This document shows, in pieces, positions 775 through 19,846 of a stretch of 42,956 bases of DNA. The notes under the pieces are model-generated. The model worked only from the letters and a program-made list of their open reading frames with translations. It had not been told where the DNA came from and did not search any database. Position numbers and translations under genes: made by a program. Positions within the stretch are counted from its first letter, which is position 1; each line of letters opens with the position of its first letter. Where the stretch lies: positions 1 to 42,956 of the forward strand of contig NZ_JFBD01000003.1 of the NCBI RefSeq assembly GCF_000709085.1, in the 5' to 3' direction. The DNA is from Virgibacillus alimentarius. GTDB taxonomy: Bacteria; Bacillota; Bacilli; Bacillales; Amphibacillaceae.

Positions 775-2133
775 TTATATATTTGACTTCGCAAATTTCT
801 CTAATATTGTTGAACTAGGATGGTCAGCTAAAGATATCAATTTATTTACTAAAGCTACTGGTAATAAAGCATCATCATACATATCACACTTCAATTTTTC
901 AATATTTGTTAATATAATATCTATATTCCTGTAATCTTCTTTCTTCGGGTTTAATATAACTTTAGCGTCTTTAGTTGGAAGAGTTGCAACGTAAATTCGC
1001 TCATTATTATCTTTATAGATTACTTTTCCACTATAATAGGATGTCGAAGCATACGGATTCTCGGGATCAGCCTTACCTGGCAATATATACTTATAAATAT
1101 AATTATTATCTAAGAGTAAGGCCTCTCCTTTTTTTAATTTATTCTTTATCTTATCTGCATGTTCTACAAACGAACCTGATTTTTCTAACCCAATTAAGAA
1201 CAAATTTCTCTTATCTATAAGGTAGTTTATCATTTCTCTCATTAATTTATGCATATTAGCTGTTTGTCCAAAAAATGCTAGAGGGCCATCTTTTATAAAC
1301 ATCGTTTCGTTCAATAACGATGATTTCGTCTGTAGCATTAATTTTATTATATGAATAATAAAAATTTGTTCCATTAGAGTAACCACATACCCTAAAATAC
1401 CACCTGCACCAAGCTCTTCATCAATAGCTTCATGTAATCTAAAAACATCAGTTAAATATATTTCACCTTTACACTCAGGACAGTTGAATATACCATCTGA
1501 ACTCATTTCTTTGAAGCTTAAGTTTATGGCTCGTTTTTCACAGTTTATATTTGGGCAACTACCCAGCTGATAAGAAAGATCAGTATCACTTCTTTCTTTT
1601 CCTTTATACTCCTTATAAATAAACCACTTTAATGTATCGATAAAATAGTTACTTTCATCAGGTTTATTCATAAAAACATCGTATACTGTTTTTCTAACGG
1701 ACTTAGTAAGTGATGTTTCTCCATCTAACGAAATTCCTTTAATGGGTATTACAAACTTTAATCTTTCTATTTGTCGTAATGACTCCATGTCTTCTTCATC
1801 AATAAATGATAATTCATGAATCTCGTCTAGATCACTTACTTTAAAAAAGGATGCTCCCAGTTGAAAAAAAGCAATTTTAGATGAAGGAAAGTCGTTCCTA
1901 ACTGAAATTTCCCTGTAACTTCCATCAAACGCAATTACTCTCTGAATCTCACGGGAATCAAGTTGGTTTATTTCAAAGGTGTTAAAGTGGTTTGCATCTA
2001 TTTCTTCAGTTGTTTTTGGTAAATCGCAATTACTTAAGAAGTACTGTACATCACTGTCTTTTATTACATAGGAGTGCGAAGATTTACTTGCTTTCTCAAT
2101 AGGTCGCCTCCCTCTTTTTGATACATAGGCCAT
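775..2133 (-). CDS. NurA-family nuclease with a zinc-ribbon insertion
   Basis: 452 residues. The N-terminal part has VIAFDGSYRE (Asp70) and the C-terminal part has FIKDGPLAFF (Asp282); these match the metal-binding Asp motifs of NurA 5'-to-3' nucleases. The end (LLPVALVNKL) also fits the family. Between them is an extra CPNINC...CPEC cysteine set (Cys193, Cys198, Cys218, Cys221), probably a zinc ribbon. NurA proteins work with the HerA translocase in DNA end resection in archaea and in bacterial defence operons. Here the start codon overlaps the HerA stop by one base (TAATG), implying translational coupling. A role as the effector nuclease of a three-gene anti-phage system is inference. The family call is fairly secure from the two Asp motifs and the HerA partner. 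Confidence 0.75.
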   Translation of the reverse strand: MAYVSKRGRRPIEKASKSSHSYVIKDSDVQYFLSNCDLPKTTEEIDANHFNTFEINQLDSREIQRVIAFDGSYREISVRNDFPSSKIAFFQLGASFFKVSDLDEIHELSFIDEEDMESLRQIERLKFVIPIKGISLDGETSLTKSVRKTVYDVFMNKPDESNYFIDTLKWFIYKEYKGKERSDTDLSYQLGSCPNINCEKRAINLSFKEMSSDGIFNCPECKGEIYLTDVFRLHEAIDEELGAGGILGYVVTLMEQIFIIHIIKLMLQTKSSLLNETMFIKDGPLAFFGQTANMHKLMREMINYLIDKRNLFLIGLEKSGSFVEHADKIKNKLKKGEALLLDNNYIYKYILPGKADPENPYASTSYYSGKVIYKDNNERIYVATLPTKDAKVILNPKKEDYRNIDIILTNIEKLKCDMYDDALLPVALVNKLISLADHPSSTILEKFAKSNI

Positions 2134-4160
2134 TATTCATCCCCCTGAGCAGAAAACTTATCAATTTGAACTGGTACCACAAATGAATTTGAATATGTTT
2201 TCATTCTGACAAACCCTTTATCATTGGAAGAACTAAATTTTATGAGACTAGAAGTAAAGTCTGCAAAATCATAGTATTTTCTTAATTCTTTTGTCTCATC
2301 CTCATTATTCAGGTGCGCTATAAACCAATTTTGAGTATTTTTTAATATATTTGAACTAATAGAGCTAACTTCTTGCGTAGCATAAATTAAACCTAAATTT
2401 AATTTCGCACCTTCTTTGGCTATTCTATTATATATTTGGCTTAAATCCTTATCCTCTTTTTTAGGGAACAGATTATGAGCTTCTTCAAAGTAAAACTGAA
2501 CAAAATTATTAGGTTTTGTACCAATAAACCTAGACATTGCATCATCAAATATTCTTTTACATATTTGTTCAGAATAAAGCGCTTGTATTTCCGGATCTCC
2601 TTGGGACAAGTCCACAATAACAATTTTTCCAGATCTCAAATGCTCTAAAATATCTTCCTCAAATGGATTATTAGTAGAACGGGTGTGTAATTTAATCAGT
2701 GGAGTAAGTTTTTTATAACCACTTACAGTTGGGTTAGCTCCTGGTTGTTTTTTCATTGTAAGGAATACTAATAATGCTTTTAATTCTTCATCCGCCCACT
2801 CTTTACCTTTATTGTTTTTTGGATATTGGGATGTGTAATTCATATCCTTATAATTTTCCCAAAGTTGCTCAAACCAGTTTGAAGCATCTTCTAATGAAAC
2901 CCCTTTTGATGGGTCGATATTTATTTTGTCATTAAGTTCATCAATTCCTTTAAATTTAACTCTTAATGCTTTAGTTGGGAAACCAGCCTTGAATAAACAA
3001 CATAAATATGCTGCTTTCTTTCTATCATACCTAGTTTTCACACTATAATCATGATCATAATCCTCAGGTTTTTCTAAACTAACCACTCGAAAGGCATTTA
3101 CATAATCAGAACTTTCCCCTATATTTTTAAAATGCTTTTCAATTAGATTAAACCCTGCAGATAACTGTTCATAAAAATTAACCTTCATAACTTTAAATCC
3201 TGGTTCTTCTTTTTCAATAACACTATAACGAATTACATCATTTTTATAAAGTTCAAAAATTGCTGTCCCTTCGTCCTGAAGATTTGCATTAGCATACTCA
3301 CCATTAATATCAAAGATAATTTGACCTACAGGATACTTCGTAGTCCCATCATCGTTAAAATTATTTAAAACGAATTTTGCGTCAACTTCATTCCGTTTTT
3401 GCTTTTGAATAATCTCTTCAAGAGTATGATTCGCTAGGTTACTCATTTCTACCGTTTGTTGTATGACTTTTTTCACGGTATTAGATTTACCTGTTCTTGT
3501 CATACCGAATAAAGCTGTCCGTTTACCTAAAAAATCTGTTGGTAATATAGATACAGGAACTTCCTCGTCCTTCTCCTGAAACCTTTTAGTAGAACTATAC
3601 CTTACCTGTCCTATCTTTTTATATATTTCTTCGTTTATTATACCTTCATCATTTCCATTAACTATAAAATCTAATGCTTTACCTTTTGGCTTAAACACGC
3701 TATAGTTATGAGCACTATAAAAGTTCTCCACATCTGCACCAAATAATACATTCCCATTGCTTTCTTTATAAAAACTTCCTAAAATTCTACACTCTAACCC
3801 CGAAAAACTAAATTCATATCTAGTAAAGTCGTCAAGTTCATTGCCACTTCCACTTGTATTAATATTATCCTTATAGTATTCAATCATAGAACTAACTATT
3901 TCATTATCTGTTGGTAGTTTTGTGGTTTGAATAGCGCGCAGTAATAAAGCTTCTGACACACCATCTTCATTATCATAATATGCTAAGAGAAATGAACCTT
4001 GTGGAACTCCTCCCACACGGTGTTTTTTGGAATCACTAATCAATATAAACGCTTTGTCGTAATCTATATAAAAAGGACGTCCAACGAAATTTTCTTTACG
4101 ATTACCTTCCAAAAATAAATCTATCTGGGCTTCATTTTTGATTCGATCGGTTAATTTCAT
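2133..4160 (-). CDS. herA: HerA-family hexameric DNA translocase ATPase
   Basis: 675 residues. An N-terminal beta-rich region of about 200 residues (HAS-barrel-like) precedes the Walker A motif GMTRTGKS (219-226). Walker B is FYFEEAH (near 557-562), followed by a sensor-like YATQEVSSIS segment and a C-terminal region typical of HerA/FtsK-like ATPases. The family pumps double-stranded DNA and pairs with NurA or other nucleases. The gene follows the methyltransferase after 20 bases and overlaps the NurA start, so all three form one operon. SIR2-HerA and DUF4297-HerA are known defence pairings; here the partner is NurA. The start ATG is preceded by a GGAGG-like site. I see no sign of damage. Confidence 0.85.
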   Translation of the reverse strand: MKLTDRIKNEAQIDLFLEGNRKENFVGRPFYIDYDKAFILISDSKKHRVGGVPQGSFLLAYYDNEDGVSEALLLRAIQTTKLPTDNEIVSSMIEYYKDNINTSGSGNELDDFTRYEFSFSGLECRILGSFYKESNGNVLFGADVENFYSAHNYSVFKPKGKALDFIVNGNDEGIINEEIYKKIGQVRYSSTKRFQEKDEEVPVSILPTDFLGKRTALFGMTRTGKSNTVKKVIQQTVEMSNLANHTLEEIIQKQKRNEVDAKFVLNNFNDDGTTKYPVGQIIFDINGEYANANLQDEGTAIFELYKNDVIRYSVIEKEEPGFKVMKVNFYEQLSAGFNLIEKHFKNIGESSDYVNAFRVVSLEKPEDYDHDYSVKTRYDRKKAAYLCCLFKAGFPTKALRVKFKGIDELNDKINIDPSKGVSLEDASNWFEQLWENYKDMNYTSQYPKNNKGKEWADEELKALLVFLTMKKQPGANPTVSGYKKLTPLIKLHTRSTNNPFEEDILEHLRSGKIVIVDLSQGDPEIQALYSEQICKRIFDDAMSRFIGTKPNNFVQFYFEEAHNLFPKKEDKDLSQIYNRIAKEGAKLNLGLIYATQEVSSISSNILKNTQNWFIAHLNNEDETKELRKYYDFADFTSSLIKFSSSNDKGFVRMKTYSNSFVVPVQIDKFSAQGDE

Positions 4161-4180
4161 ATATTTTCCTCCTCAAATAA

Positions 4181-5158
4181 TTACAATTTTGATAATGTGG
4201 TTTCTAATTTCGGGTCTTCAAACCTTATCATGGACTGATTTCCGTACTCTTCAATAGCTTCTGTGGCTATCCATTCCCTCTCTAGTTTTTCCGCTATAAA
4301 ACCAGTAGTATTGCTTCCTGCAAATGGGTCAAAAACTAAATCCCCTTTATCTGTTAAAAATTCAACAAAAAATTGAACTAATTCTAAAGGCATTCTAGCT
4401 GGATGAGGTGTTATTCCTCTCTCTCTACAAGTCTTCAAAAAAAAGTCAGATGACTTGGTATTAGAAATACTAAATACATTTTCAGGTACTCTTCTCTCTC
4501 TTGTTTCATCAATTTGCTCAATTTCTAGTACATTAGGCATAATACTTCCGCCGTTATTCTTCAGGAAGCTTTTCTCTCCAATATTATGTTCGGAGGGCCT
4601 CTTACCAGAATTATATTCTTGCTTTTCTAGTAACCTTTTCATACTCGCACTATAAGGACGGAGTACTTTACCATTATCTGCTTTTGGAGTATCACTCTTT
4701 GACATCCACCAGACATGAGTATAACTGTCTATTGTTCTAATTCTATTCACTGTAACCCACTGTGCTGGGCTGGGTAATCTTGAAGGGTTATAGCATATAA
4801 ATTCTTGGCATAAATTAAGGTTTGCCTTTTCATTCTTTAAAAATCCAAGAAGGGATTCTAAATGAAGTGTGGAATATATTGGCCTTTCCGCTTCCCATGA
4901 ATTTCCCATTTCAATCACAATGGATCCATCATCTGTTAACAATTTACTAAATGCCTCTGATAAATTACTAAACCACTCTCTATATTCTTCCCCTTTTAGG
5001 TTTCCATATTTTTTCTTTTTGTTAAGAGGGAATGGTGGCGAAGTTATTAGAAGTTGTACTCTTCCGTGGAATTTCCTTCCCTCTTCTGAGTTAATGAAAT
5101 CTTCCACTCTATCTAAATAATATTTCCCCAGTGATGTTTCATAAAATAAGTTTGTCAT
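4181..5158 (-). CDS. DNA methyltransferase, N4-cytosine type (beta class)
   Basis: 325 residues. The catalytic motif TSPPF (39-43) comes before the AdoMet-binding motif DPFAGSNTTG (277-286), the order of beta-class amino-methyltransferases. The Ser-Pro-Pro-Phe form of the catalytic motif is more typical of N4-cytosine than N6-adenine enzymes. The central part would be the target recognition domain. It is the first gene of the methyltransferase-HerA-NurA operon, with an AAGGAGA ribosome-binding site and an extended -10 promoter upstream. The likely role is marking host DNA so that the HerA-NurA pair acts only on unmodified DNA; that is inference from gene order. The modified base and target site cannot be read from the sequence. 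Confidence 0.82.
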   Translation of the reverse strand: MTNLFYETSLGKYYLDRVEDFINSEEGRKFHGRVQLLITSPPFPLNKKKKYGNLKGEEYREWFSNLSEAFSKLLTDDGSIVIEMGNSWEAERPIYSTLHLESLLGFLKNEKANLNLCQEFICYNPSRLPSPAQWVTVNRIRTIDSYTHVWWMSKSDTPKADNGKVLRPYSASMKRLLEKQEYNSGKRPSEHNIGEKSFLKNNGGSIMPNVLEIEQIDETRERRVPENVFSISNTKSSDFFLKTCRERGITPHPARMPLELVQFFVEFLTDKGDLVFDPFAGSNTTGFIAEKLEREWIATEAIEEYGNQSMIRFEDPKLETTLSKL

Positions 5159-5203
5159 TTTACTATCTCCTTATAAATAAAAACGCTTAATTCCTTAGTT
5201 CCT

Positions 5204-5212
5204 AGTATAACA
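5204..5212 (-). promoter_or_regulatory. Extended -10 promoter of the methyltransferase-HerA-NurA operon
   Basis: On the minus strand the sequence reads TGTTATACT, an extended -10 (TGnTATACT). It lies about 45 bases before the methyltransferase start. The -35 region is weak. Confidence 0.45.
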
Positions 5213-5370
5213 CTTCAAATCCATTACGTTTATTAATTTTCTTGAACCAAATTAATAGTCTAATCAGTTGTTCTTCATCAGGTACATAACCTTAGAATCG
5301 GAAAAATATTAAAAATATTAAGAGGGATTTTTATTTTTATACATTATTCACAATATTTTCATATTGAAAA

Positions 5371-5419
5371 GCCTTAACATTAGACAACTATAAAGAAGTT
5401 GGAAATCTAACATTAAGGC
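5371..5419 (-). terminator. Terminator of the dual C5-methyltransferase operon
   Basis: On the minus strand GCCUUAAUGUUAGA pairs along its full 14 bp with UCUAAUGUUAAGGC, counting two G-U wobbles, followed by UUUUC. The wobble pairs form only in the minus-strand RNA, which fixes the direction. It lies 26 bases after the methyltransferase stop. Confidence 0.7.
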
Positions 5420-5444
5420 TCTTTGCAGAGTAAAACGAGATATA

Positions 5445-6467
5445 CTATAAAGCACCTGCTACCTCGTAATTAAGTATATCTTTATTTTTACTTTCGAGTG
5501 CTACAGCAAGATTCTTAGCTATATTCCACATTAGGACTGGAGGAATAGCATTCCCTAAAGCCCTATATTGCGTTCCTTCCGCTCTAACTAGTTTAAATGA
5601 ATCAGGAAATGATTGAATTCTAGCCACTTCTCGTGGAGTAAATCTTCGATAACGATTATTTATTTTCAATACCGGATCAGTACTGTTAAGACTTACTTTT
5701 GCAAGGTGTGCCCCAACAGTATTACATGGTTTGTTAACGTCCTGAGCTCTACCTTTATTCATGTCTTTTTTAGCTTTAAGCATCCCCTGTACTGCTCTAT
5801 CGCTAAAATAGTATTTCTCATTTATTTCACTCTCAGGAAAAATAACTTCCTTGAGAGGTACATGAGGTTGTCCAAACAAACCATCATCATCAGCATGAGT
5901 AAAGAAAGGAAATTCAAAGTCAGCTTCAATATCAGCCCTAATTCCAACAATAAATACTCTATATCTATTTTGAGGAACTCCGAAATCAGCAGCATTTAGA
6001 ACACAATGTTTTACCTTATAACCACATTGTTCAAATTCCCTTAGTATTAAAGGAAAGGCTTCTCCTTTGTTCGCTGATAATATCCCCTTTACGTTTTCTG
6101 CAATAAATGCTTTAGGTTGCCACTTCTTAATAGTCCTTACCATTTCAAAAAATAGTTTACCTTCATCATTCTTAATCCCTAACCGTTTTGGATTTTGAGC
6201 GACAATAGAGAAGGATACACACGGAAATCCCCCAACCAATATATCATGTTGTGGAATATCCTCCTCTGATACTTCCCTAATATCACGTACATCTGCATCA
6301 ATATCAAAATTAGCATTAAATATTTCGGCTATTTTAGGATCATATTCATTTGCATATACATGTTTAAACGGTAATTCATCATACTTCTTTCCTAAGAATT
6401 CAAATCCACCTTTAATTCCTATATCTCCCCCTCCACATCCAGAAAACAGGGAAGCAACTTTAAACAT
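5445..6467 (-). CDS. DNA (cytosine-5) methyltransferase, second of the pair
   Basis: About 340 residues with the ordered C5-methyltransferase motifs: LFSGCGGGD (motif I), GGFPCVSFS with the catalytic Cys near residue 83 (IV), AENVKG (VI), QNRYRVFIVG (VIII), PREVARIQSFPDSF (IX) and ALGNAIPP (X). Methylation of cytosine C5 protects host DNA from a cognate nuclease. I chose the ATG at 6467 because the AGGA site is about 9 bases upstream; two ATGs at 6476 and 6473 lie too close to it. It is the last gene of the operon that also holds the DUF3883 nuclease candidate and another C5 methyltransferase. The two enzymes differ strongly in sequence, so they probably read different strands or sites. Confidence 0.9.
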   Translation of the reverse strand: MFKVASLFSGCGGGDIGIKGGFEFLGKKYDELPFKHVYANEYDPKIAEIFNANFDIDADVRDIREVSEEDIPQHDILVGGFPCVSFSIVAQNPKRLGIKNDEGKLFFEMVRTIKKWQPKAFIAENVKGILSANKGEAFPLILREFEQCGYKVKHCVLNAADFGVPQNRYRVFIVGIRADIEADFEFPFFTHADDDGLFGQPHVPLKEVIFPESEINEKYYFSDRAVQGMLKAKKDMNKGRAQDVNKPCNTVGAHLAKVSLNSTDPVLKINNRYRRFTPREVARIQSFPDSFKLVRAEGTQYRALGNAIPPVLMWNIAKNLAVALESKNKDILNYEVAGAL

Positions 6468-6486
6468 ACACATCATTCCTATCTAT

Positions 6487-7893
6487 TTACAGTATTAGTT
6501 CTATCTCTTCACCACATTTGTTAGGATTAAAATTTATATCCATGCCGTTACGAGGAGAAGCCGATAAATTGCCACGCTTATATTCACCGACGGGATCTTG
6601 TATTACAAAAAGTTTTGTGGCTTGCTTAGTCACCATAAGTCTATATACAAAGTATCGATCCTCATGACTTTCCGCAGCTGTCCACTCATTTGGTGTTAAG
6701 TGAAACTTTAAAAAATTTACTGGAGTAGAGCTTGCTGTTGTTTTTACCTCAATATGTTTGTGCCTTTCATCAACCTCACGAGAGTTTATATCATAACCAA
6801 CTGCATACATTGCAGGAATTAACCTTATTAAATACTCAAGATCGGGACGCCCTTCAATAGATATCCTCTTTTTTTCATGATTAAGGATTAAACTTTCCCC
6901 AACTGAACCAATTCCTCCAGTAGTAGACAAGGCACCCTCAGCAATCAACTTATCTAAATCTATCAAATCCTTGACTTTATAGTACTCTTCAGAGGTATCC
7001 GTCATTAATGCGATTATATCTGTATCGAAAAAGCTATCTTCACGCTCAGTATTAAAATAATCTATCCATTTTGCTTCCAGTTTCTTAACATCTCTAAGTA
7101 GAATATTTTCTGGTGCCGGCAGATCCGTATAGTAGTCAAATAAATCGTCGGTTGGATTTATGAACCTTTGAATAGCGATGTCTTCAACATGGTTAATGTA
7201 ATATCTTCCATCAGGCCGTCTAACAAGCAGATTGGCTTGAGTCATATAATCAAGTATATCACCGGCATAACGAACTACATCACCAGTCCAATCGTACTCG
7301 ACGTCATCCTTCCTGTTATTTACTATGAGTGCCCATGTATCTTCAACAGACCTTCCATCTCTTGTTACCCGTAAATCATTGAATATGCAATGGGTAGCTT
7401 CAGCTTTCTTAATTCCAGCTCTAACTCCATCCTGTTTTTCAGCATAATCCATCATTTGAAGGATATATAAAGCAGGTCGAAAATCAATTCTATTCTGCAA
7501 GAACTCAAGGTTCATATGTGGCTTTAAGAAACCACCAGGATATTGAAAGTGGTAGCAAAAAAGCTTAAAAAACTTAACAAGATCTTGATTTGACGCTAAC
7601 TCTACAGCTCTTCTACTAGGTTTTAGTTCATAACCATCCGCTTCAACAAAGCAGAACAAGGCATCTATTTCTGTTCTCCAGTTATTTATTGTTTTCTCTT
7701 TCTTATGAAGGTTACCTGGAAATCTCCTGATTGCCGCATTAAATTCACGAATAAATTCGTTTACTGGCTTTTGCCCTATTCTTGTTACCTCATTTGCAAT
7801 AAAAACTAACACATTTTCAATATCATTTTTAAAACGAGGTCTTGGATGATGTAATCTAAAAAAATACTTATCTGGTACATTGTACTCCGACAT
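6487..7893 (-). CDS. DUF3883-type nuclease candidate (restriction endonuclease of the operon)
   Basis: About 468 residues. The C-terminal 130 residues resemble DUF3883, a PD-(D/E)XK-like nuclease domain: GESLILNHE, then VGYDIN (Asp near 368), then IEVKTT (Glu382, Lys384), then LTPNEWTAA. The N-terminal 300 residues are alpha-rich and I cannot place them firmly; they may recognise DNA. The gene lies between two C5 methyltransferase genes, overlapping the first by 26 bases, so a restriction enzyme role is the natural reading but is not proven. The ATG at 7893 is preferred over the TTG at 7902 because AGAGGTG lies 10 bases before it. No catalytic residue seems lost. Confidence 0.72.
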   Translation of the reverse strand: MSEYNVPDKYFFRLHHPRPRFKNDIENVLVFIANEVTRIGQKPVNEFIREFNAAIRRFPGNLHKKEKTINNWRTEIDALFCFVEADGYELKPSRRAVELASNQDLVKFFKLFCYHFQYPGGFLKPHMNLEFLQNRIDFRPALYILQMMDYAEKQDGVRAGIKKAEATHCIFNDLRVTRDGRSVEDTWALIVNNRKDDVEYDWTGDVVRYAGDILDYMTQANLLVRRPDGRYYINHVEDIAIQRFINPTDDLFDYYTDLPAPENILLRDVKKLEAKWIDYFNTEREDSFFDTDIIALMTDTSEEYYKVKDLIDLDKLIAEGALSTTGGIGSVGESLILNHEKKRISIEGRPDLEYLIRLIPAMYAVGYDINSREVDERHKHIEVKTTASSTPVNFLKFHLTPNEWTAAESHEDRYFVYRLMVTKQATKLFVIQDPVGEYKRGNLSASPRNGMDINFNPNKCGEEIELIL

Positions 7894-8959
7894 TATCTGC
7901 AAACACCTCTTTATTCAAAGATTGAAGCAACTTTTCTCCAATAGATTTAGCAAGTAACGGTGGAACAGCATTTCCAACCTGTCTATATTGTTCAGTCCTA
8001 TTCCCATAAAAAATAAAGTCGTCTGGGAATGATTGAAATCGAGCATTTTCTCTAACAGTTGGAACTCTGTTAGCTTTATAATGAAAATGATGGCGGTGTC
8101 CAGTGTCTATTGTTAGAGTAGGTCTCTTGCTATGATATCTAGTCCAAGCAACATTAAATTTCCTTGATTCTCTATATTCTTCAGGTAGATCCTTATAATT
8201 CCCTCCCTCTGGCACTAAACTGATTATCTTCTTAGTTTGTTCAGTATGATTTGTTGCAAGATGATTAAATACTGATTGGGAATTGGTTCTACAGTATTTC
8301 TGATAATCATTTTGTGGGGGAGTTATATAATCCTGTCTCTCTTCCCCCAGTTCGTCCATAAGAAGTGGTAAATCACTTGTGGCTTGTTCTGAAGTAATCC
8401 AATCATTTTCAAAAAGTATTTTTTGTTCTGGGAAAGAAAACTTCTCTCCACTTTTTATTCCAACAAAGAAAACTCTTTTACGGGTTTGAGGAACGCCGTA
8501 GTCCGCCGAGTTCAATATTTGATAGTTAACGGTATAACCTAACTTTTCAAATTCACTCAGAATACTATCCTTTATTGTTCCTTTAAAAAGACTAACTAAT
8601 CCAGGAACATTTTCAATTACAAAGGCTTTTGGTCGTATATCTCTTACTTTTTCTATAAAAGACAGATAAAGTCGATTTCTTGGGTCATGTAATTTCCTCG
8701 GCCCCGCAATTGACATCCCCTGACAGGGGGGGCCACCGACTATTACATCAATTGTTCTACCTTCAACTGCATCTAGTATTTCATTAGTAGAAATTTTTGT
8801 AATATCTCCACATATCCCTTTGCTGCCTTTATGATTTTCTTCAAAAGTTTTGATAGCTGCCTTGTCGTTATCTATGCCTAAAATTGTTTTGTATCCTGCT
8901 AAATTAAAACCATATGATAATCCACCACTACCACAAAATAGATCAATGATGTTATACAC
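7868..8959 (-). CDS. DNA (cytosine-5) methyltransferase, first of the pair
   Basis: 363 residues with all main C5-methyltransferase motifs: DLFCGSGGLS (I), GGPPCQGMS with catalytic Cys79 (IV), VIENVPG (VI), QTRKRVFFVG (VIII), RENARFQSFPDDF (IX) and QVGNAVPP (X). The start is a GTG at 8959, supported by AAAAGGAG ten bases upstream. It is the promoter-proximal gene of the operon, as expected when methylation must come before restriction. Systems with two C5 methyltransferases often recognise asymmetric sites, one enzyme per strand; whether that holds here is inference. Confidence 0.9.
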   Translation of the reverse strand: MYNIIDLFCGSGGLSYGFNLAGYKTILGIDNDKAAIKTFEENHKGSKGICGDITKISTNEILDAVEGRTIDVIVGGPPCQGMSIAGPRKLHDPRNRLYLSFIEKVRDIRPKAFVIENVPGLVSLFKGTIKDSILSEFEKLGYTVNYQILNSADYGVPQTRKRVFFVGIKSGEKFSFPEQKILFENDWITSEQATSDLPLLMDELGEERQDYITPPQNDYQKYCRTNSQSVFNHLATNHTEQTKKIISLVPEGGNYKDLPEEYRESRKFNVAWTRYHSKRPTLTIDTGHRHHFHYKANRVPTVRENARFQSFPDDFIFYGNRTEQYRQVGNAVPPLLAKSIGEKLLQSLNKEVFADNVGVQCTR

Positions 8960-11053: not shown

Positions 11054-11067
11054 TATCCTCACTCCTG

Positions 11068-12178: not shown

Positions 12179-12193
12179 TCTTCATACTTATAT

Positions 12194-12348: not shown

Positions 12349-12388
12349 TCGTTATTTATCCACCGAGATAGATAACGGCTTTTTTTAT
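12349..12388 (+). terminator. Terminator-like hairpin upstream of the small-gene block
   Basis: AGTCGTTAT (from 12347) pairs with ATAACGGCT (to 12380), including a G-U pair, followed by a T7 run. No gene precedes it directly; it may be an attenuator or the relic of a removed gene. Apart from this and the terminator at 12194-12230, the region 12179-12443 shows nothing further. Confidence 0.6.
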
Positions 12389-12443
12389 TTACAGAGACGA
12401 CAGGCGCGGTGAGAGGAGCGCATTCTTGAAAGGAGGCATTAAG

Positions 12444-12644: not shown

Positions 12645-12695
12645 TCGTCCTAAAGCTTTTAGCAACTACTTATCAATTAATAGGAGGAATCATTT

Positions 12696-13199
12696 ATGAG
12701 AAACAATTTTGAAGACACAAATGAAATGTTGAACGGAAAAAGCATTTCTATTCCAGAGGTTCAATCAATCTATCAATCACTGATTGAGCAATATGAAGGT
12801 TTATCAGTCGAAATAGTAGATTCAGTTGAGGGTAATGACTACGTCAGACTCTCTCATCTACTAGCTAGAAGAAGGAAGTTACAAACAGCATTGGATGATA
12901 TTAAATCCCTACATGAGGATGAGCTAATCACACAGCGATCAACTAAAGAACGAATTGCAAATGTATTAAAGACAAGCGCAGAAATGACTGAATCAAAAGG
13001 TGAAGATGCTTTGATAAAAATTACCGACAGCTTAGAGAAAGTAAACCATTCAGCACATAGCATTGCATCTAAAACACTAGATCTCTCAACTAAGACAATA
13101 AGTAAGGGGAATCAGCTTAATCATAGCGTAGGTAAGTTTCTTGTAGATAAGACATCAAAGGGTTTATCAAAACTTGCAGATGTATTCGATAAACAATGA
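12696..13199 (+). CDS. Unknown helical protein of the mobile block
   Basis: 167 residues, with TAGGAGGAATC before the ATG. The first 90 residues are charged helix, likely coiled coil (ending KLQTALDDIKSLHEDELI). The C-terminal part has repeated Ser/Thr-Lys-Leu units (KTLDLSTKTISKGNQL). There is no signal peptide or membrane segment, and I recognise no family. It lies 51 bases after the small winged-helix-like gene and 31 bases before the next gene, so co-transcription is likely. Confidence 0.6.
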   Translation: MRNNFEDTNEMLNGKSISIPEVQSIYQSLIEQYEGLSVEIVDSVEGNDYVRLSHLLARRRKLQTALDDIKSLHEDELITQRSTKERIANVLKTSAEMTESKGEDALIKITDSLEKVNHSAHSIASKTLDLSTKTISKGNQLNHSVGKFLVDKTSKGLSKLADVFDKQ

Positions 13200-13230
13200 T
13201 CTTTATCCATTGAAAGGAGGTGAATACCAA

Positions 13231-13971
13231 ATGAGGACAGATGAACATGCAAACAACATCGTACCATTTTCAAGTAATGCTGAGTTAAATCCATCATCAT
13301 TACCAAATATCGTCTTATCATCAGATGCATCCAAACAACGGATTGAAGAACTACAAAAGTTTGTTCAGGAAGTGATGGTTAAAGGAATTGATTATGGTTT
13401 AGTTCACGGCTTTTCAAAACCTACTTTACTTAAGTCCGGTGCAGAAAAGCTATGTGATGTATTCGGCTTCTCGAAAACAGCAGAAGTCGTTAACCGTATC
13501 GAGCAATGGGAACCTGGAATATTCGCATACGAGGTAAAGACGACACTCATACGCAAAGATAATGGTGTTGTCGAGGCAGAAGGTTTAGGGTCTTGCAACA
13601 GTAAGGAATTATCATTCCAACAACAAGATCCTTATACAATCGTTAACACCATTTTGAAGATGGCGAAGAAACGTGCATTGATTGATGCAGTATTATCTGC
13701 AACACGTTCAAGTGGATTGTTTACGCAGGACATCGAGGACTTTCCTAAGCAGTCAAACAATAAAGGAGGTGATGATCTAGCAACAAAAGCTCAGCTTCAA
13801 ACGATATTCCGTATTGTCAACGAAATTGATATGCGGACAGATGTTGCAAAAGAAATGATGAAGATGACTTTCGGTGTTGAGCGTAGTACACAACTCACAA
13901 AGAAACAGGCATCCGATTTCATTCAAGACTTGCTGCATTTGAAAGAAGCATATGAGGAGGTGAGGGAGTAA
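13231..13971 (+). CDS. Conserved mobile-element protein, possible DNA-recombination role
   Basis: 246 residues from the ATG at 13231, which follows AAAGGAGGTG by 8 bases. The core has IDYGLVHGFSKPTLLKSGAEKL, then a beta-rich part, then GLGSCNSKE and DPYTIVNTILKMAKKRALID. This pattern (lysine-rich loop before GAEKL, then NT-x-x-KMAxKRA) is one I recall from plasmid, phage and integrative-element proteins that lie near recombination genes; I do not know a proven function. The C-terminal 60 residues (after FTQDIEDF) look like a separate small helical domain. A single-strand annealing or DNA-binding role is a guess. It is followed by a terminator. Confidence 0.62.
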   Translation: MRTDEHANNIVPFSSNAELNPSSLPNIVLSSDASKQRIEELQKFVQEVMVKGIDYGLVHGFSKPTLLKSGAEKLCDVFGFSKTAEVVNRIEQWEPGIFAYEVKTTLIRKDNGVVEAEGLGSCNSKELSFQQQDPYTIVNTILKMAKKRALIDAVLSATRSSGLFTQDIEDFPKQSNNKGGDDLATKAQLQTIFRIVNEIDMRTDVAKEMMKMTFGVERSTQLTKKQASDFIQDLLHLKEAYEEVRE

Positions 13972-14000
13972 ATGAATTTACAGGAAAATAATCATCAATG

Positions 14001-14040
14001 AAAAGCTCATGGATTGCAGATGCAGTCGATGGCTTTTTTA
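14001..14040 (+). terminator. Terminator after the 246-aa gene
   Basis: AAAGCTCATGGATTGCA and TGCAGTCGATGGCTTT form an imperfect stem of about 13 bp followed by TTTTTTA. Confidence 0.6.
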
Positions 14041-14051
14041 TTGCACAAAAA

Positions 14052-14081
14052 AGATGAGCTCATCCACCAATGAACTCATCT
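14052..14081. other. Inverted repeat in the region before radC
   Basis: AGATGAG at 14052-14058 and CTCATCT at 14075-14081, with further inner pairing. The A-run upstream would make a U-tract on the minus-strand RNA, so it may be a minus-strand terminator or a transcript element; no minus-strand gene is nearby. Confidence 0.4.
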
Positions 14082-14145
14082 CCTATGGGACGCAAGTGTA
14101 ATCTCTTAATTACATTGTATCTCATAACAGCTATTCACTCAATTG

Positions 14146-14174
14146 GGAGGGACGTATTTTGTCTCTCCTTTTTT
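14146..14174 (+). terminator. Terminator or attenuator just before the RadC gene
   Basis: GGAGGGAC (14146-14153) pairs with GTCTCTCC (14161-14168) and six T follow. The hairpin ends about 30 bases before the RadC ATG, so it may attenuate that gene. Confidence 0.6.
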
Positions 14175-14206
14175 AATTCAATCAAACAATAATGGAGGAA
14201 TTTATA

Positions 14207-14815
14207 ATGAACAATTCAATCGATAAAATTACTTTTAGAAATTTATTGGCGACAACTACTCGTGAAAAGGAAGATAGTTATGTAGTGAATGAACTATTCA
14301 GCCGCTACCCATCTATCCAAGAATTGTTGGATGTAACGGAAGAAGAGTTATTGCAAATCAAAGGTATTGGGAAAGTAAAAGCTAAGCAGATTATTGCTGC
14401 CCTACAACTTGCTCGCATGAACCCATGTCCAGTTGAACAACGATTTACGATTCGTTCACCTGAAGATGCGTATGACTATCTGAAGGATATGCAATACCTA
14501 AATCAAGAACATTTTGTAGTCCTTGGACTAAACACTAAAAATCAAATAATCTTTCGCGAAACAGTATTTGTTGGGTCATTAAATGCTAGCGTTGTCCATC
14601 CCCGGGAATGCTTTAAGCACTTAGTTCGTCGTAGTTGTGCAAGTGCTATCGTCGCCCATAATCATCCTAGTGGAGACGTTTCACCAAGCATGGAGGATAT
14701 TAACGTTACAAAGCGCTTAGGTGAAGCTGGGAAAATGATGGGGATTGAGATTTTAGATCACTTAGTTATTGGTCATGAAAAATATGTGAGCTTAAAGGAA
14801 AAAGGATATCTATAA
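14207..14815 (+). CDS. radC: RadC-family (MPN/JAB domain) protein
   Basis: 202 residues from the ATG at 14207, with GGAGG seven bases upstream; the ATG at 14192 contains that site and is not used. A helix-hairpin-helix segment (LLQIKGIGKVKAKQII, about 50-65) leads to the MPN domain with FVVLGLNTKN, HPRECFKHLVRRSCASAIV and the metal motif AHNHPSGD. RadC proteins are frequent on mobile elements and often occur in anti-restriction or recombination gene sets; their biochemical activity is unsettled. It ends the plus-strand block and has a good terminator. It may be an element-borne paralogue rather than the chromosomal one, which usually lies near mreB. Confidence 0.88.
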   Translation: MNNSIDKITFRNLLATTTREKEDSYVVNELFSRYPSIQELLDVTEEELLQIKGIGKVKAKQIIAALQLARMNPCPVEQRFTIRSPEDAYDYLKDMQYLNQEHFVVLGLNTKNQIIFRETVFVGSLNASVVHPRECFKHLVRRSCASAIVAHNHPSGDVSPSMEDINVTKRLGEAGKMMGIEILDHLVIGHEKYVSLKEKGYL

Positions 14816-14824
14816 AACCATTAT

Positions 14825-14856
14825 GAGAGTCAGTGATTTCGCTGACTCTCTTTTTC
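14825..14856 (+). terminator. Terminator after the RadC gene
   Basis: GAGAGTCAG (14825-14833) pairs with CTGACTCTC (14842-14850), followed by TTTTTC. Beyond it, to 15108, I see no gene. Confidence 0.85.
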
Positions 14857-15108
14857 AAAATGACTTAATGGGCTGACATTTGAGATTATTGAATGTTTTT
14901 GGCTAAGTACCCACACCGAATAATGTAATAATGTTGATATGATAGTCTTTCAGCTTTAACCAATTATTTAACGTTTGTTGAGGATCAGGTTGAAAAAACA
15001 GTTCACTTTATATTAATCGGTCACAAGCCGAAATTGTAACATTGGAAGTTGAATTTTTTGCATAATAGCTATAAAAAATACCCAGATCCATCTAACAATT
15101 TTATTCAT

Positions 15109-15588
15109 CTACTTATGGTATGGCTCATTTTTCTGTATTTTGAATGATCGGTATATTTGTTCCAACAAGATCAGCTTCATTAATTGATGTGGAAATGTCA
15201 TTTTCGAGAACGACAGCTTTTGATCCGCACGATGTAACACCTCATCACTTAAACCATTTGAACCACCAATAACAAAAGATATTTGGCTCTTACCATGAAT
15301 GCTAAGCTCATCCATTTCTTTTGCTAACTGTTCTGATGACCAATTTGCTCCTTTGATGTCCAGAACAATGACATATTGGTTGGGTTTTATTTTACTTAAT
15401 ATCCGCTCTCCCTCTTTTTGCTTTACTTGGAGTAACTCCTTCTCACTCATTTGCTCAGGTGCTTGCTCATCATTCACTTCATCCATCGTTAGTTTACAAT
15501 ATGGACGCAACCGCTTCTCAAATTCTGCGATTCCCTGTTTGATGTATTTTTCTTTGATTTTGCCTACACTTACAATTTGAATCTGCAT
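15109..15588 (-). CDS. rlmH: 23S rRNA (pseudouridine-1915 N3)-methyltransferase, element-linked second copy
   Basis: 159 residues, the normal family length, with the SPOUT knot segment [15 protein letters not shown], then [13 protein letters not shown] and a C terminus ending in PYHK. By hand alignment it is about 60 per cent identical to the second copy at 19361-19846, so it is a different lineage, not a recent duplicate. A GAGGTGG site precedes the ATG. RlmH methylates pseudouridine 1915 of 23S rRNA. It is co-oriented with, and 41 bases after, the element's replication gene. Its 3' end holds the left junction of the integrated element. It ends in the consensus tail that the copy at 19361 lacks. 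Confidence 0.92.
15118..15123. other. Left junction (attL-like) in the 3' end of the element-linked rlmH
   Basis: GTATGG on the plus strand lies at the codons for Pro-Tyr of rlmH, the position matching GTACGG at 19376-19381 in the other copy. GTA is the shared core. The exact crossover bases cannot be fixed from one sequence. Confidence 0.5.
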
Positions 15589-15629
15589 TTTTCCACCTCA
15601 ATTTGTAATCTTACTATTACATTAAGTTA

Positions 15630-16706
15630 TTAGATCTCTATAGGTAAAGAGAAACTGGATTCTAAATCATATGGTATATCTGTTCTTTTCTTAGTCAACC
15701 ATCCACATAGTTTAGGAAATTGTGACAAGGTATTTCCATCTACAATTGGATTTACTGTTCTTTTCTCTAAAGGAGTTGTTACACCCCAATTATGCACTAG
15801 AGATAAGGCGATAAACTTAAGTTTAAGTAGAGAAGAGTACTGTATCCACTCATTTAGATCGTCTTGGAATTTTTTCTGTAGATCTAGGCATGGATATTTA
15901 AAACCCTTTTCTCTTTTCAATCGTAGCTTTTCATTATCGCTCATCTTCATTACAGCTTCAATCATATTGTCCTCTTTGTTGATGATTTTCTTTATCTTTT
16001 TCCGTCCATCTATTTTATCAATGTCTACCATATTCATCCCTTGAAATACATCACTACGATCATTTAATAAAAACTCCCGGACGGATAAACGGTTGGCACG
16101 TTTTACCTTATTCGTCTTCTCTATACGTGTCAGTACATATCCTTCTATGCCCATCTCGTTTGCCTTGTCATACACCTTTACTTGTTGTCCATTTCGCTTT
16201 CCATAATAATAGGTTCGATGCTTCCCTTTATAATTTTGTAACTTAGATCTTTGACTAGGTACATATAAGCGTTTGGCTACTTCATTTGGACTGAATTGTG
16301 TTATATCTACCTTGTCATCCCACATCCCAACCTGTATATCGTCGACATCTCCTACGATAAATTTTAATATATCTACCAACTGAGATGGGGAAATGTTTTG
16401 ACTAGATGGATTTATTTCGATTGTTGTATTAGGTAAATGAGCATAGACTTTTCCCCATTTTACCTTAAATAACTTATAGTTAAGCATATATTTATATCGT
16501 GTGCTTGTGTTTGCTGATTTATCAACATAAGAAGCACCTTTTACCATATTCCAAAAATCCGCTCTAACGATTTTGTCGGTATAGAACTTTATTCCGTCGT
16601 AGGGACACACTCCCTTCTTTGATGATGAACTCTTCAATATCTCATTTAACGGGTAACAGTGATCCATTACCTTGTTAAGTTTTGTCGTATCAAACATAAT
16701 AACCAC
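15630..16706 (-). CDS. Replication initiation protein, phage gene II/X (rolling-circle) type
   Basis: 358 residues. The central part has TYYYGKRNGQQVKVYDKANE followed by GYVLTRIEKTNK, close to the YxGxRxSxxxxxxYDK pattern of gene II/X and RstA-like replication proteins of filamentous phages and small plasmids. The N terminus (CPYDGIKFYTDK, then NPSSQNISPSQLVDIL) is compatible. The C terminus is helical. I use the GTG at 16706, about 10 bases after GGGAGG; an ATG at 16697 is also possible. It should nick a double-strand origin to start rolling-circle replication; I could not locate the nick site. The rlmH copy follows on the same strand. Confidence 0.72.
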   Translation of the reverse strand: MVIMFDTTKLNKVMDHCYPLNEILKSSSSKKGVCPYDGIKFYTDKIVRADFWNMVKGASYVDKSANTSTRYKYMLNYKLFKVKWGKVYAHLPNTTIEINPSSQNISPSQLVDILKFIVGDVDDIQVGMWDDKVDITQFSPNEVAKRLYVPSQRSKLQNYKGKHRTYYYGKRNGQQVKVYDKANEMGIEGYVLTRIEKTNKVKRANRLSVREFLLNDRSDVFQGMNMVDIDKIDGRKKIKKIINKEDNMIEAVMKMSDNEKLRLKREKGFKYPCLDLQKKFQDDLNEWIQYSSLLKLKFIALSLVHNWGVTTPLEKRTVNPIVDGNTLSQFPKLCGWLTKKRTDIPYDLESSFSLPIEI

Positions 16707-16810
16707 GTCATCAACACCTCCCGTATTTATATCCCTCCAACCATTGGTATAACTGGTATGAATCTACTTCTTATGATAGATAGCAAGAATAGTCATAGGG
16801 TGCATAATTT

Positions 16811-16993
16811 TTAATCAATTTCTTTATTATTAATTGAATCCAATGAATCTATGAACACATCAGCCAACCTTTGTGTAAATTGCTCTTTTTGCCTTTGTTG
16901 TTGTTTATAATACTCAGATATTTTAATTACCACTCTATCTGACTTCTTAGCTTTTAAAGATATCCAATCAGAATTACGCTTATTATCCATCAT
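16811..16993 (-). CDS. Small basic protein upstream of the replication gene
   Basis: 60 residues, with AGAGAGG eight bases before the ATG at 16993. It is rich in Lys, Gln and Arg and mostly helical (KISEYYKQQQRQKEQF). The place just upstream of a rolling-circle replication gene is where copy-control proteins often sit, but no ribbon-helix-helix signature is clear. It is read from the minus-strand arm of the divergent promoter region. Confidence 0.55.
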   Translation of the reverse strand: MMDNKRNSDWISLKAKKSDRVVIKISEYYKQQQRQKEQFTQRLADVFIDSLDSINNKEID

Positions 16994-17017
16994 TAGATCA
17001 ACCTCTCTTTTTTGTAT

Positions 17018-17097
17018 ATTATAAACCTTACAAAATATAATATTACATAAATAGTATTGTGTAAACAGTTGTATTTTAAAAACCTTACAATTATAAT
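17018..17097. promoter_or_regulatory. Divergent promoters with twin AAACCTTACAA operators
   Basis: Plus strand: TTGTAT (17069-17074), 17-base spacer, TATAAT (17092-17097) for the XRE-recombinase pair. Minus strand: TATAAT at 17023-17018 for the 60-aa and replication genes. The repeat AAACCTTACAA occurs twice, at 17023-17033 and 17080-17090, each directly beside one of the two -10 boxes. This suggests one repressor, probably the XRE protein, controls both directions. Confidence 0.55.
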
Positions 17098-17115
17098 AAT
17101 AATGAGGTGATGAAA

Positions 17116-17715
17116 ATGAACTTTGCGGAATCTGTTAAGAACAATAGAACTAAATTAGGTTTAAGTTACAGAAAGCTTTCAGAGGAAACTGGAATATCAC
17201 ATAGTCACATTCGTGATATAGAAAATGGAAAGTATACCCCTTCCTTTGATAAGGCTATAAAGTTGGCCAATGCCTTGGACATTAATACTCAAGATGTAAT
17301 AATCACTACATATCAAGCACAGTTTCGTGACCAAATATATGAACTGATTAAAACGTGCGATGAATACAAGGTGAGCATCCCCTATAAAGAATGGGTTAAT
17401 TCCAACTTACCAATTCAACCAATTAGCGAAGATAGAACCAAACTACACGATATTGCTTTTAAAATAGCCGAACCACTCTATAGCGAGTCAAACAAACAAG
17501 TACTAAATAAAAAGTTGGAATTCATCGACTATATTTCAAATTCTCAGTTCAATACATTCACGTATGAAGATACCATTAGGCTTATGGAAATGATGCACAA
17601 AACATCCTTGATCCAAGGTATTCCCGTTGCTAAAAATCGGGTTAACGGATTTATGCAGAAATTAGAAGAAGAAAACGAAACAATAATGAATAATAGAGGT
17701 GACTTAAATGACTAA
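17116..17715 (+). CDS. XRE-family regulator of the integrated element
   Basis: 199 residues from the ATG at 17116, with GAGGTG six bases upstream; the GTG/ATG at 17107-17110 overlap that site. Residues 4-60 form a helix-turn-helix (NRTKLGLSYRKLSEETGISH, then IRDIENGKYTPS). The rest is helical with no known domain. It overlaps the recombinase start by 8 bases (ATGACTAA), so the two are translationally coupled, as with many phage and plasmid repressors placed before an integrase. It likely binds the two AAACCTTACAA sites. Confidence 0.82.
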   Translation: MNFAESVKNNRTKLGLSYRKLSEETGISHSHIRDIENGKYTPSFDKAIKLANALDINTQDVIITTYQAQFRDQIYELIKTCDEYKVSIPYKEWVNSNLPIQPISEDRTKLHDIAFKIAEPLYSESNKQVLNKKLEFIDYISNSQFNTFTYEDTIRLMEMMHKTSLIQGIPVAKNRVNGFMQKLEEENETIMNNRGDLND

Positions 17716-19423
17716 TACCATTCCTGCCGCACTATACGCTCGTGTTAGTACCGAAGAACAGGCTACAGAAGGGTACAGTATTCAAGCACAAATTGAAGAA
17801 ATCGAAGCATATGCAAAAAGAAACAATATGGAAATAGTTTCAAGGTATGTGGATGAAGGTGTAAGCGGAAAGAACATATCTGGCCGTCCTGAAATGAAAA
17901 GACTATTAAAGGAAATCAATAACAACCAATTCAATACTGTTATTGTATATAAGATTGATCGTATATCACGAAAATCTAAAGATGCTTTGGAAATTGCAGA
18001 GCGTTGTCAGCAGTCTAATATCAGTTTAATCAGTCTTATGGAGAATATGGATATAACAACACCCATGGGTAAAATGATGTTTCAAATCTCAAGTAACTTT
18101 GCGGAATACGAAAGAAACTCAATCATTGAACGCTTAAAAATGGGTATGAACCAAAGAGCTAAGCAAGGTTATTACAATGGTGGACGAGTTTTTGGATATG
18201 AAAGTGTTAACAAACTATTGGTAGTAAACGAAGAGGAAGCTCATGTTATACGCCTGATTTTTGATTATGCTGAACAAGATTTAGGCTATAAGGCAATAGT
18301 TTCCCGAATTAATGCTAAGGGATATAAAACAAAACGAGGATGCGATTTCTCAATCGGCACAATTAAAACGATACTGCATAATCCACTTTATATTGGGAAA
18401 ATCCGCTTCAATATGTACGAAAATTGGTCAGAGAAACATCGGAAAGGCAAAAACAAAAATTACATCCTAGTTGATGGAAAACATGAAGCCATTATTGATG
18501 AAGAGCAATGGAATAAGGTGCATCAGATGCGCAAAAAACGTACTACAAGACCTGCACAATCCAACAAACCATATATATTAAATGGACTTATTAAATGCCC
18601 TAAATGTGGATACGGAATGGTTTCTGGATTATCTACAGGTTCAAAAGGTAAAAAGTACCGTTATTATGTATGTGGACTATTTCATAATAAAGGAAGTCGA
18701 GCATGCAGTGCCCATTCCATTCGTGCAGATCGAGCTGAACAGCAAGTGTTTGAAGAATTAAAACGAATTGTATCTGAACCATATGTATTAAAACGTATAA
18801 TTGACGATGTTAATCAAAAACGTAGCCAAGCAATGACTCCAATAAATGATGAAATCAGAATATTAGAGTCTAAATTAAATAAAGTAGAAGTACGTATCAA
18901 TAACATCACGGAACAATTAATGGATGATCCATCTCTAGTGTCTATTTTTAAACCGAAGCTAGCGGAACTGACAGAAGAGAAATCAAATCTCCAAAACAAG
19001 CTTGAAGTGTTGAATACCGAATTAGATGAGTGTGATACAACACCTATTGATACTCAAGCATTACATAACCTTTTAAGTGAATTTGAAAAGGTAATGAGGG
19101 ATGCAAATCCTGAGAAACAAAAAGAACTTCTTCGTTTGATTATTAAGGATATACAAATAACCATGGAGGCAACGCAAGGGGTTGAAAGACTTATTGAAAG
19201 AATCAATTTACACTTTGACTTCACACTAGAGGGATTAAAGCATAATGCTTTAGATGTTGTGAATACAATTCATATTGAATTCGATGAACCAATAAAACCT
19301 TGGATGCTGGAAGAAAGGGCTAGTAAAATGTTGAGCGAATTTATGGATTCGCTTAATATTTTACCCTTGAAAGATGTACGGTTCCCCCCTCATAATCCGA
19401 AAAGCCCGGTACACCTGCTCTAG
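17708..19423 (+). CDS. Large serine recombinase (site-specific integrase)
   Basis: 571 residues. The resolvase domain has [11 protein letters not shown] with catalytic Ser14, [16 protein letters not shown] and [15 protein letters not shown]. The recombinase domain includes [19 protein letters not shown] and [14 protein letters not shown] zinc ribbon (Cys297, Cys300, Cys322, Cys333) and a long coiled coil (about 355-430) follow. This layout is that of phage and SCC-type large serine integrases. The start overlaps the XRE stop. The last 16 or so codons (from about 19376) lie in the antisense of the chromosomal rlmH, so integration changed the C terminus; in a circular form I predict a shorter tail ending near LIFLYFE. 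It probably inserted this element into rlmH. Confidence 0.93.
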
Positions 19424-19846
19424 CAACACCAGCCTCATCAATTGATGCGGAAATGTCATTTTAGAAAAGGACAACGCAAGATCACTCCGCTTCTGCACCG
19501 CTTCGCTGATCCCGAGTGACCCGCCGATCACAAATACTATTTTGCTCTTTCCGTAGGTCGCAAGCCCGTCCAATTTCGATGCGAGTTGCTCAGAACTTAA
19601 CATTTTCCCGTTTATTTCCAGGGTGATGACAAACGCATCTTGAGAAATATTAGACAAAATGCGTTCACCTTCTTTTCGCTTCACTTCCTGCATTTCTAAT
19701 TCGCTCATCGTTTCCGGAGCTTTTTCGTCTGCTACTTCAATGATATTTACTTTGGCATAGGCACCAAGGCGTTTTAAATATTCTTTGATGCCTTCTTTTA
19801 GATATTTTTCTTTTAATTTTCCAACAGATACGATTGTTATTTTCAA
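19361..19846 (-). CDS. rlmH: 23S rRNA (pseudouridine-1915 N3)-methyltransferase, chromosomal copy with altered tail
   Basis: 161 residues with [14 protein letters not shown] and [13 protein letters not shown], the normal SPOUT fold. Its position matches the usual rlmH (yydA) locus beyond htrC. The C terminus reads RGEPYIFQG rather than the family's RGEPYHK, because the last codons come from the inserted element. The stop lies within the recombinase gene's 3' end. Loss of the terminal His-Lys may weaken the enzyme, as the C-terminal residues lie near the active site in the family; that is inference. It is probably the ancestral copy. Confidence 0.92.
19376..19381. other. Right junction (attR-like) in the 3' end of the chromosomal rlmH
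   Basis: GTACGG on the plus strand marks the Pro-Tyr codons after which the chromosomal RlmH departs from the family tail. It matches GTATGG at 15118-15123. It lies inside the recombinase gene. Confidence 0.5.

Follow-up and report, generated by a model that had tools for sequence, protein, structure and literature searches.

Cassettes that target rlmH and rimL

Cassettes of the staphylococcal cassette chromosome (SCC) type insert into rlmH without harming it. SCC elements, including SCCmec, have the 3′ end of this gene as target, Ccr-like large serine recombinases, a GA core and variable cargo, and no second rlmH is reported for them in the literature that we found; their repeats begin with the terminal rlmH motif that encodes EAYHK (PMC4723332). 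The Enterococcus cassette chromosome (ECC) also has rlmH as target and Ccr recombinases, and a gene thought to act in rolling-circle replication is reported for 6 of 32 ECC (PMC6222049); these elements use a ccrAB pair, and the accessible part of that paper describes two rlmH alleles among strains and mentions no replacement borne by the cassette. In staphylococci, the CI ccrDE island (about 18.8 kb) combines cassette recombinases, a truncated target (rimL), a carried homologue of that target and restriction-modification (R-M) cargo; the rimL homologue shows 70% nucleotide identity, and the authors suggest possible complementation (PMC10581047). Here, we describe a stretch of 42,956 nucleotides from Virgibacillus alimentarius (hereafter the window), which is the entire contig NZ_JFBD01000003.1 (C3) of a 3.05-Mb genome and holds an SCC-like cassette whose recombinase belongs to a distinct clade. 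On the evidence of sequence comparison, this cassette probably breaks the rlmH of its host and supplies a replacement (“break and replace”).

A related idea is, as stated, in print for the ccrDE island, and none was found for rlmH: the literature searched, with most subscription journals outside its coverage, describes no replacement of rlmH that a cassette carries. The island differs from the cassettes described here in its target (rimL), its two recombinases (ccrD and ccrE) and its hosts (staphylococci), whereas the present cassettes use rlmH and one recombinase, lose target residues that are needed in E. coli, pair this loss with a second gene in eight of eight cases and have a proposed explanation in the overlap at the attachment site.

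An altered host rlmH and an intact cassette copy

The two full-length rlmH genes of the window lie in the same direction (Table 1), encode proteins that are 61% identical and are the only rlmH matches in the genome. An earlier reading made from the letters alone (the sequence-only reading) had described two complete genes about 60% identical, with an XRE gene, a 60-aa gene and a large serine recombinase between them; family and domain matches and the open reading frames (ORFs) agree with this, the fourth ORF of the interval being one of 358 aa. From 19385 rightward runs the host chromosome, with the native rlmH, HtrA-, WalJ-, WalI-, WalH- and WalK-like genes (named by eye) and further chromosomal genes. 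From 19384 leftward runs the cassette, with the recombinase, the XRE gene, the 60-aa ORF, a putative replication gene (rep), the second rlmH, radC, a phrog_10048 gene, a 167-aa gene and cargo. The left rlmH is internal cargo of the mobile unit, a larger SCC-like cassette that has inserted in the native, right-hand rlmH at its 3′ end. The earlier view that the 3′ end of rlmH is the target, as in SCC, with one large serine recombinase at the site, stands, as does the view that the element carries an rlmH of its own, although this copy is inside the cassette and not at its end.

The recombinase was searched for in three sets of genomes, namely the family (159 genomes, of which 49 matched at E 1e-60 or better), the order (397 genomes, 12 at E 1e-150 or better) and the class (398 genomes, 3 at E 1e-150 or better), and also in named genome contigs, of which the best 79 loci were taken; these sets overlap. 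The recombinase was found beside rlmH in other genomes. Recombinases at least 67% identical to that of the window define the clade, which comprises eight cassettes, seven from genomes in four families (G000, which is the window, G109, G036, G530, G314, G339 and G229) and one from Cytobacillus horneckiae. In all eight, a host rlmH whose tail is not His-Lys lies beside the recombinase, and a second rlmH ends in PYHK (rlmH was counted genome-wide for seven of the eight members). By tblastn, five of the seven clade relatives have the five HtrA/Wal-like genes in unchanged order upstream of their host rlmH; in G109 and G036, these genes were not found within the fetched stretch. The next recombinases (47-53% identity) occur in 16 genomes, 15 of which have one rlmH each, the sixteenth (G873) being outside the count. 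They belong to single-rlmH cassettes of Bacillales, such as those of Oceanobacillus bengalensis, Virgibacillus ndiopensis and Paucisalibacillus globulus, many of which share the radC, phrog_10048 and 167-aa genes with the clade; unlike the clade, they end on the right with His-Lys/Arg-stop and have no second rlmH. Of the best 79 loci in named contigs, each a stretch of at most about 22 kb, three, all from the clade, had two full rlmH genes; the other 76 had one (52 loci) or none (24) in the stretch.

The C-terminus of the host RlmH is changed from PYHK to PYIF, PYIFQG or PYLV in the eight clade cassettes (in the window, ..GEPYIFQG vs ..GEPYHK), a change that the sequence-only reading had missed. 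SCC leaves the rlmH product unchanged after insertion, whereas here His-Lys is lost from all eight host copies. The comparison covered 108 of 118 loci (in the other 10, no rlmH match was long enough for the length rule), with some genomes present twice, and was reduced to 94 distinct sequences. Outside the clade, the 94 distinct rlmH ends keep His in 93 and Lys or Arg in 94, and the clade host copies in 0/8, a comparison uncorrected for kinship. His-Lys/Arg is kept by all 49 distinct rlmH genes that adjoin a recognised cassette end outside the clade (29 at ccrAB-type cassettes and 20 at cassettes of the window's type). In E. coli RlmH, the substitutions Y152F, H153F and R154A made activity undetectable, with dimers and binding of S-adenosylmethionine retained, and R154A impaired ribosome binding (PMC5430550). 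Because the matching residues are needed for activity in E. coli, host RlmH with the altered tail should be inactive.

It might instead be supposed that the altered tail is harmless: RlmH ending in PYIF would remain functional, with the second rlmH as a passenger or as a gene with another substrate or role. Consistent with this, the rest of the host protein is kept and its frame is open in seven of the eight cassettes, and a second rlmH occurs without the clade recombinase in 2 of 159 family genomes (G008 and G085). We nevertheless regard a harmless tail as unlikely, given the near-invariant His and invariant Lys/Arg outside the clade, the inactivity of the matching E. coli mutants and the coincidence of tail loss and second gene in 8/8.

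Attachment sites and extent of the cassette

On the gene strand, the right junction reads GAACCGTACATCTTTCAAGGGTAAAAT, and GGGTA stands exactly 18 nt after GA at attR in all eight clade cassettes. The true left ends read TTTACCCTA or a near match (TATACCCTA in G109), followed by ACGGTGAACCGTA and then by the displaced host end; they were located on the same contig as the right end in three clade relatives (G339, G530 and G109) and in two single-rlmH cassettes (G065 and G015). The attP rebuilt from these five is a palindrome round ACGGT-GA-ACCGT with arms ACCC and GGGTA, so that the same layout is seen in the two single-rlmH cassettes tested. The five have inverted repeats at both ends, and the window holds the right end only. 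GA is also the central dinucleotide reported for CcrAB (PMC10581047). Joining of the flanks in silico restored EPYHK-stop in all five, namely the three clade cassettes and the two single-rlmH cassettes; it is therefore the insertion that changes the tail, and a precise excision would reverse the change.

With both ends on one contig, the cassettes of the three relatives measure about 17 kb (G339), 19 kb (G109) and 30 kb (G530). Half-site pattern searches of the window found no further cassette end between 19384 and base 1, and the window cassette apparently runs left past the contig start, with at least about 19 kb of it in the window. In the window genome, ACGGTGAACCGTA occurs once, at 1263 of a different contig (C29), where the host side reads PYHK-stop (by eye), and this is the probable left end of the window cassette. 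The situation is the same in G036, where the left end would likewise lie on another contig.

These ends bear on the 4.3-kb element of the sequence-only reading, which was to be bounded by the 3′ ends of both rlmH genes, to move alone and to close at a circular junction of 15118 with 19376. The segment does hold the recombinase and a putative replication gene, the left rlmH ends near a target sequence (TACCATAAG), and GGGTA follows the cassette rlmH in five of eight cassettes (at 15079-15083 of the window, minus strand), although 34-49 nt after GA. In the other three, no GGGTA occurs within 100 nt of the stop codon, and none of the eight cassettes has the ACCCTA half-site in the 60 nt that precede GA of the cassette rlmH. 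The left rlmH therefore lacks both cassette-end half-sites at the right spacing, and 15118 is no cassette end. Moreover, the conserved genes continue left of 15109 into radC, which is common to single-rlmH cassettes, and the left ends of three relatives are 17-30 kb away. An independent 4.3-kb unit is, in our judgement, highly improbable.

A second possibility is that the locus is a composite of two tandem cassettes, the outer of which used a captured host gene, the left rlmH, as its site. Tandem cassettes at rlmH have been reported (PMC10061031), in one relative (L043) the ends of two cassettes are fused, and the misplaced GGGTA found in 5/8 could be a relic of such a site. Downstream of the left rlmH, however, the sequence leads into the conserved motif and radC (see below) as in single-rlmH cassettes, and neither a GGGTA nor a GGCAAA end signature is found there at the right spacing in any of the eight, which makes such a composite very unlikely.

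Other traces of cassettes at rlmH were also seen. The C29 region (1-17000, L226) continues from the probable left end at 1263 into R-M-like genes (by eye) and a second recombinase (36% identical) at 15233, and is likely a composite site. Beyond the left end of G339 (L127), AGGCAAAA comes after the displaced host end; as this is the signature of the right end in ccrAB-type cassettes, another cassette probably used the site earlier. In G085, two full rlmH genes (L092 2480-2959 and 5788-6267) lie 3.3 kb apart with 91% DNA identity and no recombinase of the window's family in the fetched stretch; one of them ends in RGAPYHK, with GCT in place of the GA core, that is, a damaged attachment site. Fragments or pseudogenes of rlmH apart from the intact gene occur in G006, G011, G032, G044, G054, G071, G077, G088, G092 and G153, either 11 to about 800 kb away within one contig or on a different one, and are perhaps relics of cassette traffic. 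Finally, the Pro codon of EPYHK is CCG in 35 of 47 rlmH rows without recognised cassette signature vs 101 of 351 other Pro codons (108 rows); from this bias in Bacillales rlmH, the attachment site seems to be kept or rewritten by cassettes.

Origin of the cassette rlmH

The cassette copies are 81-94% identical to each other and 55-61% to the copy of their own host, while host copies are 65-81% identical among themselves. The closest rlmH genes of the family that lie outside cassettes are those of a single genus (G111-G115), at 67-81%. In a tree of 110 rows, whose bootstrap was not fully settled, the cassette copies cluster (98/96) with the long-branch G113 inside, adjoined by the G111-G115 genus and Brevibacillus, and the host copies are scattered among the rlmH genes of other hosts. 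Pairwise identity of the cassette copies tracks that of the recombinase (Mantel r 0.53, p 0.016) and not that of the host copy (r -0.09); with radC, r was 0.57 in the seven cassettes with a whole radC, a value given without a significance test. Divergence of the host copies is probably mostly older than the insertions. No close relative of the cassette rlmH was found on plasmids or phages, the best among the matches listed being 64.8% and 59.7% identical.

The two cassette-copy pairs with synonymous divergence (dS) below 1 have ratios of nonsynonymous to synonymous divergence (dN/dS) of 0.050 and 0.049, from which the cassette rlmH appears to be under purifying selection; most other pairs were saturated, and low dN/dS is also seen in host copies. 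Selected recoding of the cassette rlmH for self-immunity was considered and rejected: the last Pro codon is CCG in 0/8 copies (96/108 in other rows), yet CCG is rare elsewhere in them too (3/31).

Proposed mechanism and points against it

From the sites, the recombinase would join attP to attB at the GA of a Glu codon near the end of the host rlmH. Integration exchanges the last codons of the gene, as the PYIF, PYIFQG or PYLV tails in the sequences show, and the host RlmH would then be inactive, as predicted from the E. coli mutants. The cassette rlmH would supply methylation of pseudouridine 1915 in 23S rRNA, and precise excision would restore the host gene.

Several points weigh against this account. 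The eight clade cassettes share descent and are not independent, and each E. coli mutant carries one substitution, made in a distant RlmH. Host rlmH shows no sign of decay outside G229, where it is interrupted by a nonsense codon and the cassette copy is open; as the recombinase end and the phrog_10048 gene of G229 are also broken, this codon, which may come from general decay or assembly quality, lends the account little weight. The two genomes with a second full-length rlmH and no clade recombinase have PYHK in both copies. The left ends of the window genome and G036 would lie on other contigs, G314 and G229 gave no exact left-end match, and that of C. horneckiae was sought in the fetched stretch only. 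Codon use, moreover, gives no support for selected recoding against the cassette's own recombinase.

The recombinase and its overlap with rlmH

The window recombinase scores 398.6 bits with the NCBIfam CcrB model and 326 bits with CcrC. As both scores are below the cut-offs of 900, it is related to ccrB and ccrC without being an equivalog-level member. With a recombinase under these cut-offs, which also sets it apart from SCC, and an rlmH that is not preserved, the clade is not SCC proper. In plasmids, the recombinase search gave four records at E 1e-60 or better, all below 60% identity.

The recombinase frame crosses attR in the translated cassettes (its 3′ end is at 19361-19423 in the window), and its last codons are on the antisense strand of the host rlmH. 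Its C-terminus thus comes from host rlmH antisense when the cassette is integrated and from the cassette left end when it is circular, and this difference could set the direction or timing of recombination. Opposite the right end of the cassette, the recombinase reads LKDV (six cassettes) or LNEV (two) in the clade, and LFMI in the two single-rlmH cassettes translated (G065 and G015). We infer that ordinary cassettes must spell His-Lys/Arg-stop in their right end, which would constrain the recombinase on the opposite strand (other stop or Lys codons would give residues other than LFMI), and that an rlmH of their own would free the clade recombinases from this constraint.

Other genes of the cassette

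Features of the window are collected in Table 1. The radC, phrog_10048 and 167-aa genes are part of the same cassette core as the recombinase. For instance, radC is near the recombinase in eight of nine loci of the single-rlmH type (L035-L043), the exception being L036, whose contig begins 674 bases ahead of the recombinase. Beside radC, both clade and single-rlmH cassettes have a conserved AATGTTACAATT with a downstream TAATA-type box (L033 at 12874 and 13676, L115 at 5980 and 6721), and G109 and G229 have a second copy of AATGTTACAATT upstream of the cassette rlmH. The interval from radC to the cassette rlmH was also considered as a folded origin, an idea set aside because the DNA fold was not significant (z -1.2, with 25 of 200 shuffles as good or better).

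Table 1. Positions of the cassette, its host gene and its attachment site in the window
Feature	Position	Strand	Basis
Native host rlmH, 3′ end interrupted by the cassette	19361..19846	-	PF02590 and NCBIfam RlmH; C-terminus PYIFQG; groups with host relatives in the tree
Inferred crossover dinucleotide GA of attR (cassette right end)	19383..19384	-	Centre of palindrome ACGGT-GA-ACCGT in attP rebuilt from relatives
Cassette right end in attR, GAACCGTACATCTTTCAAGGGTAAAAT, giving the new rlmH tail	19358..19384	-	GGGTA 18 nt after GA
Large serine recombinase, CcrB/CcrC-like	17708..19423	+	Resolvase, Recombinase and Zn-ribbon domains; last codons cross attR
XRE-family regulator directly before the recombinase	17107..17715	+	HTH_3, E 9.5e-15
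60-aa ORF	16811..16993	-	No Pfam or NCBIfam match; phrog_12220 at E 0.0065 only
358-aa putative replication protein, type 1	15630..16706	-	No family match; same-slot homologues in 3 other clade cassettes
Cassette-borne rlmH, PYHK tail intact	15109..15588	-	rlmH family matches (PF02590), tail, tree
Conserved promoter-like motif AATGTTACAATTT, TAATAT downstream	15031..15043	-	1 match in the window vs 0.01 expected
RadC-family gene, conserved core	14192..14815	+	PF04002; 68-96% identical in 7 other clade cassettes
Conserved cassette gene, phrog_10048	13174..13971	+	PHROG match, conservation
Conserved 167-aa cassette gene	12696..13199	+	Conservation; no Pfam match above chance
Cargo: BpuJI-type restriction enzyme and three DNA methyltransferases	4181..8959	-	PF11564, E 1.1e-90; PADLOC MTase_II/REase_II
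Cargo: NurA-like and HerA-like genes	775..4160	-	PADLOC and Pfam searches

The slot of the rep gene holds two protein types that BLASTP does not link: type 1 in the window, G036, G530 and G314 (as two ORFs), and type 2 in G109, G339 and C. horneckiae. No protein of either type was found in the slot of G229. The sequence-only reading had called the 358-aa ORF of the window a gene II/X replication gene, but this type 1 protein has no match in Pfam, NCBIfam or PHROG. Type 2 of G109 matches phage replication proteins (phrog_702, E 6.7e-9; TIGR01629 at E 0.023 only), and that of C. horneckiae gave no match to such proteins. The AlphaFold2 models of the two types (mean pLDDT 52.1 and 46.5) were too poor for a fold search, and PDB profile searches with the Rep proteins gave chance-level matches only. 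Of the proposed family of replicating integrative elements, the recurrence is borne out by eight cassettes, while a rolling-circle replicase is not supported for the window ORF. No Cch helicase/CcPol-MP operon was recognised with Pfam and NCBIfam among the four ORFs that separate the two rlmH genes; the remainder of the cassette was searched in part. Elsewhere in the window, at 38405-40325, reverse-transcriptase-like and HNH-like ORFs resemble a broken group II intron (by eye).

Possible dependence and exclusion at the rlmH site

After ordinary cassette insertion, the half-site beyond ACCGTA stays target-like. In the clade, overwriting of the rlmH end would remove the catalytic tail and rewrite this half-site, and the cassette's own rlmH may be a poor site, since none of the eight copies has the GAACCGTA found in many host sites (28 of 47 rows without recognised cassette signature; at occupied sites, the bases right of GA are cassette-derived, so that GAACCGTA there is uninformative on host choice). 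If this doubtful but conceivable extension were true, the cassette would have made its own dependence and exclusion: the host would need the cassette, and competitors would be unable to stack at rlmH, in a manner that resembles laboratory cleave-and-rescue gene drives. The recombinase abuts rlmH in all eight clade cassettes, and nothing is stacked at attR. Tandem counts were discarded as a measure of site exclusion; stacking beside a cassette of the single-rlmH type was seen in L043 only, without a systematic count, and the contrast is meaningless.

The clade of cassettes described here appears to have taken the opposite of the SCC habit, as it would harm rlmH and pay with a copy of its own. 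This makes several ideas testable, namely the constancy of the rlmH site, the shaping of the attachment site by the overlapping code of recombinase and RlmH, and the possible dependence of a ribosome-modification enzyme on a mobile element that brings it about.

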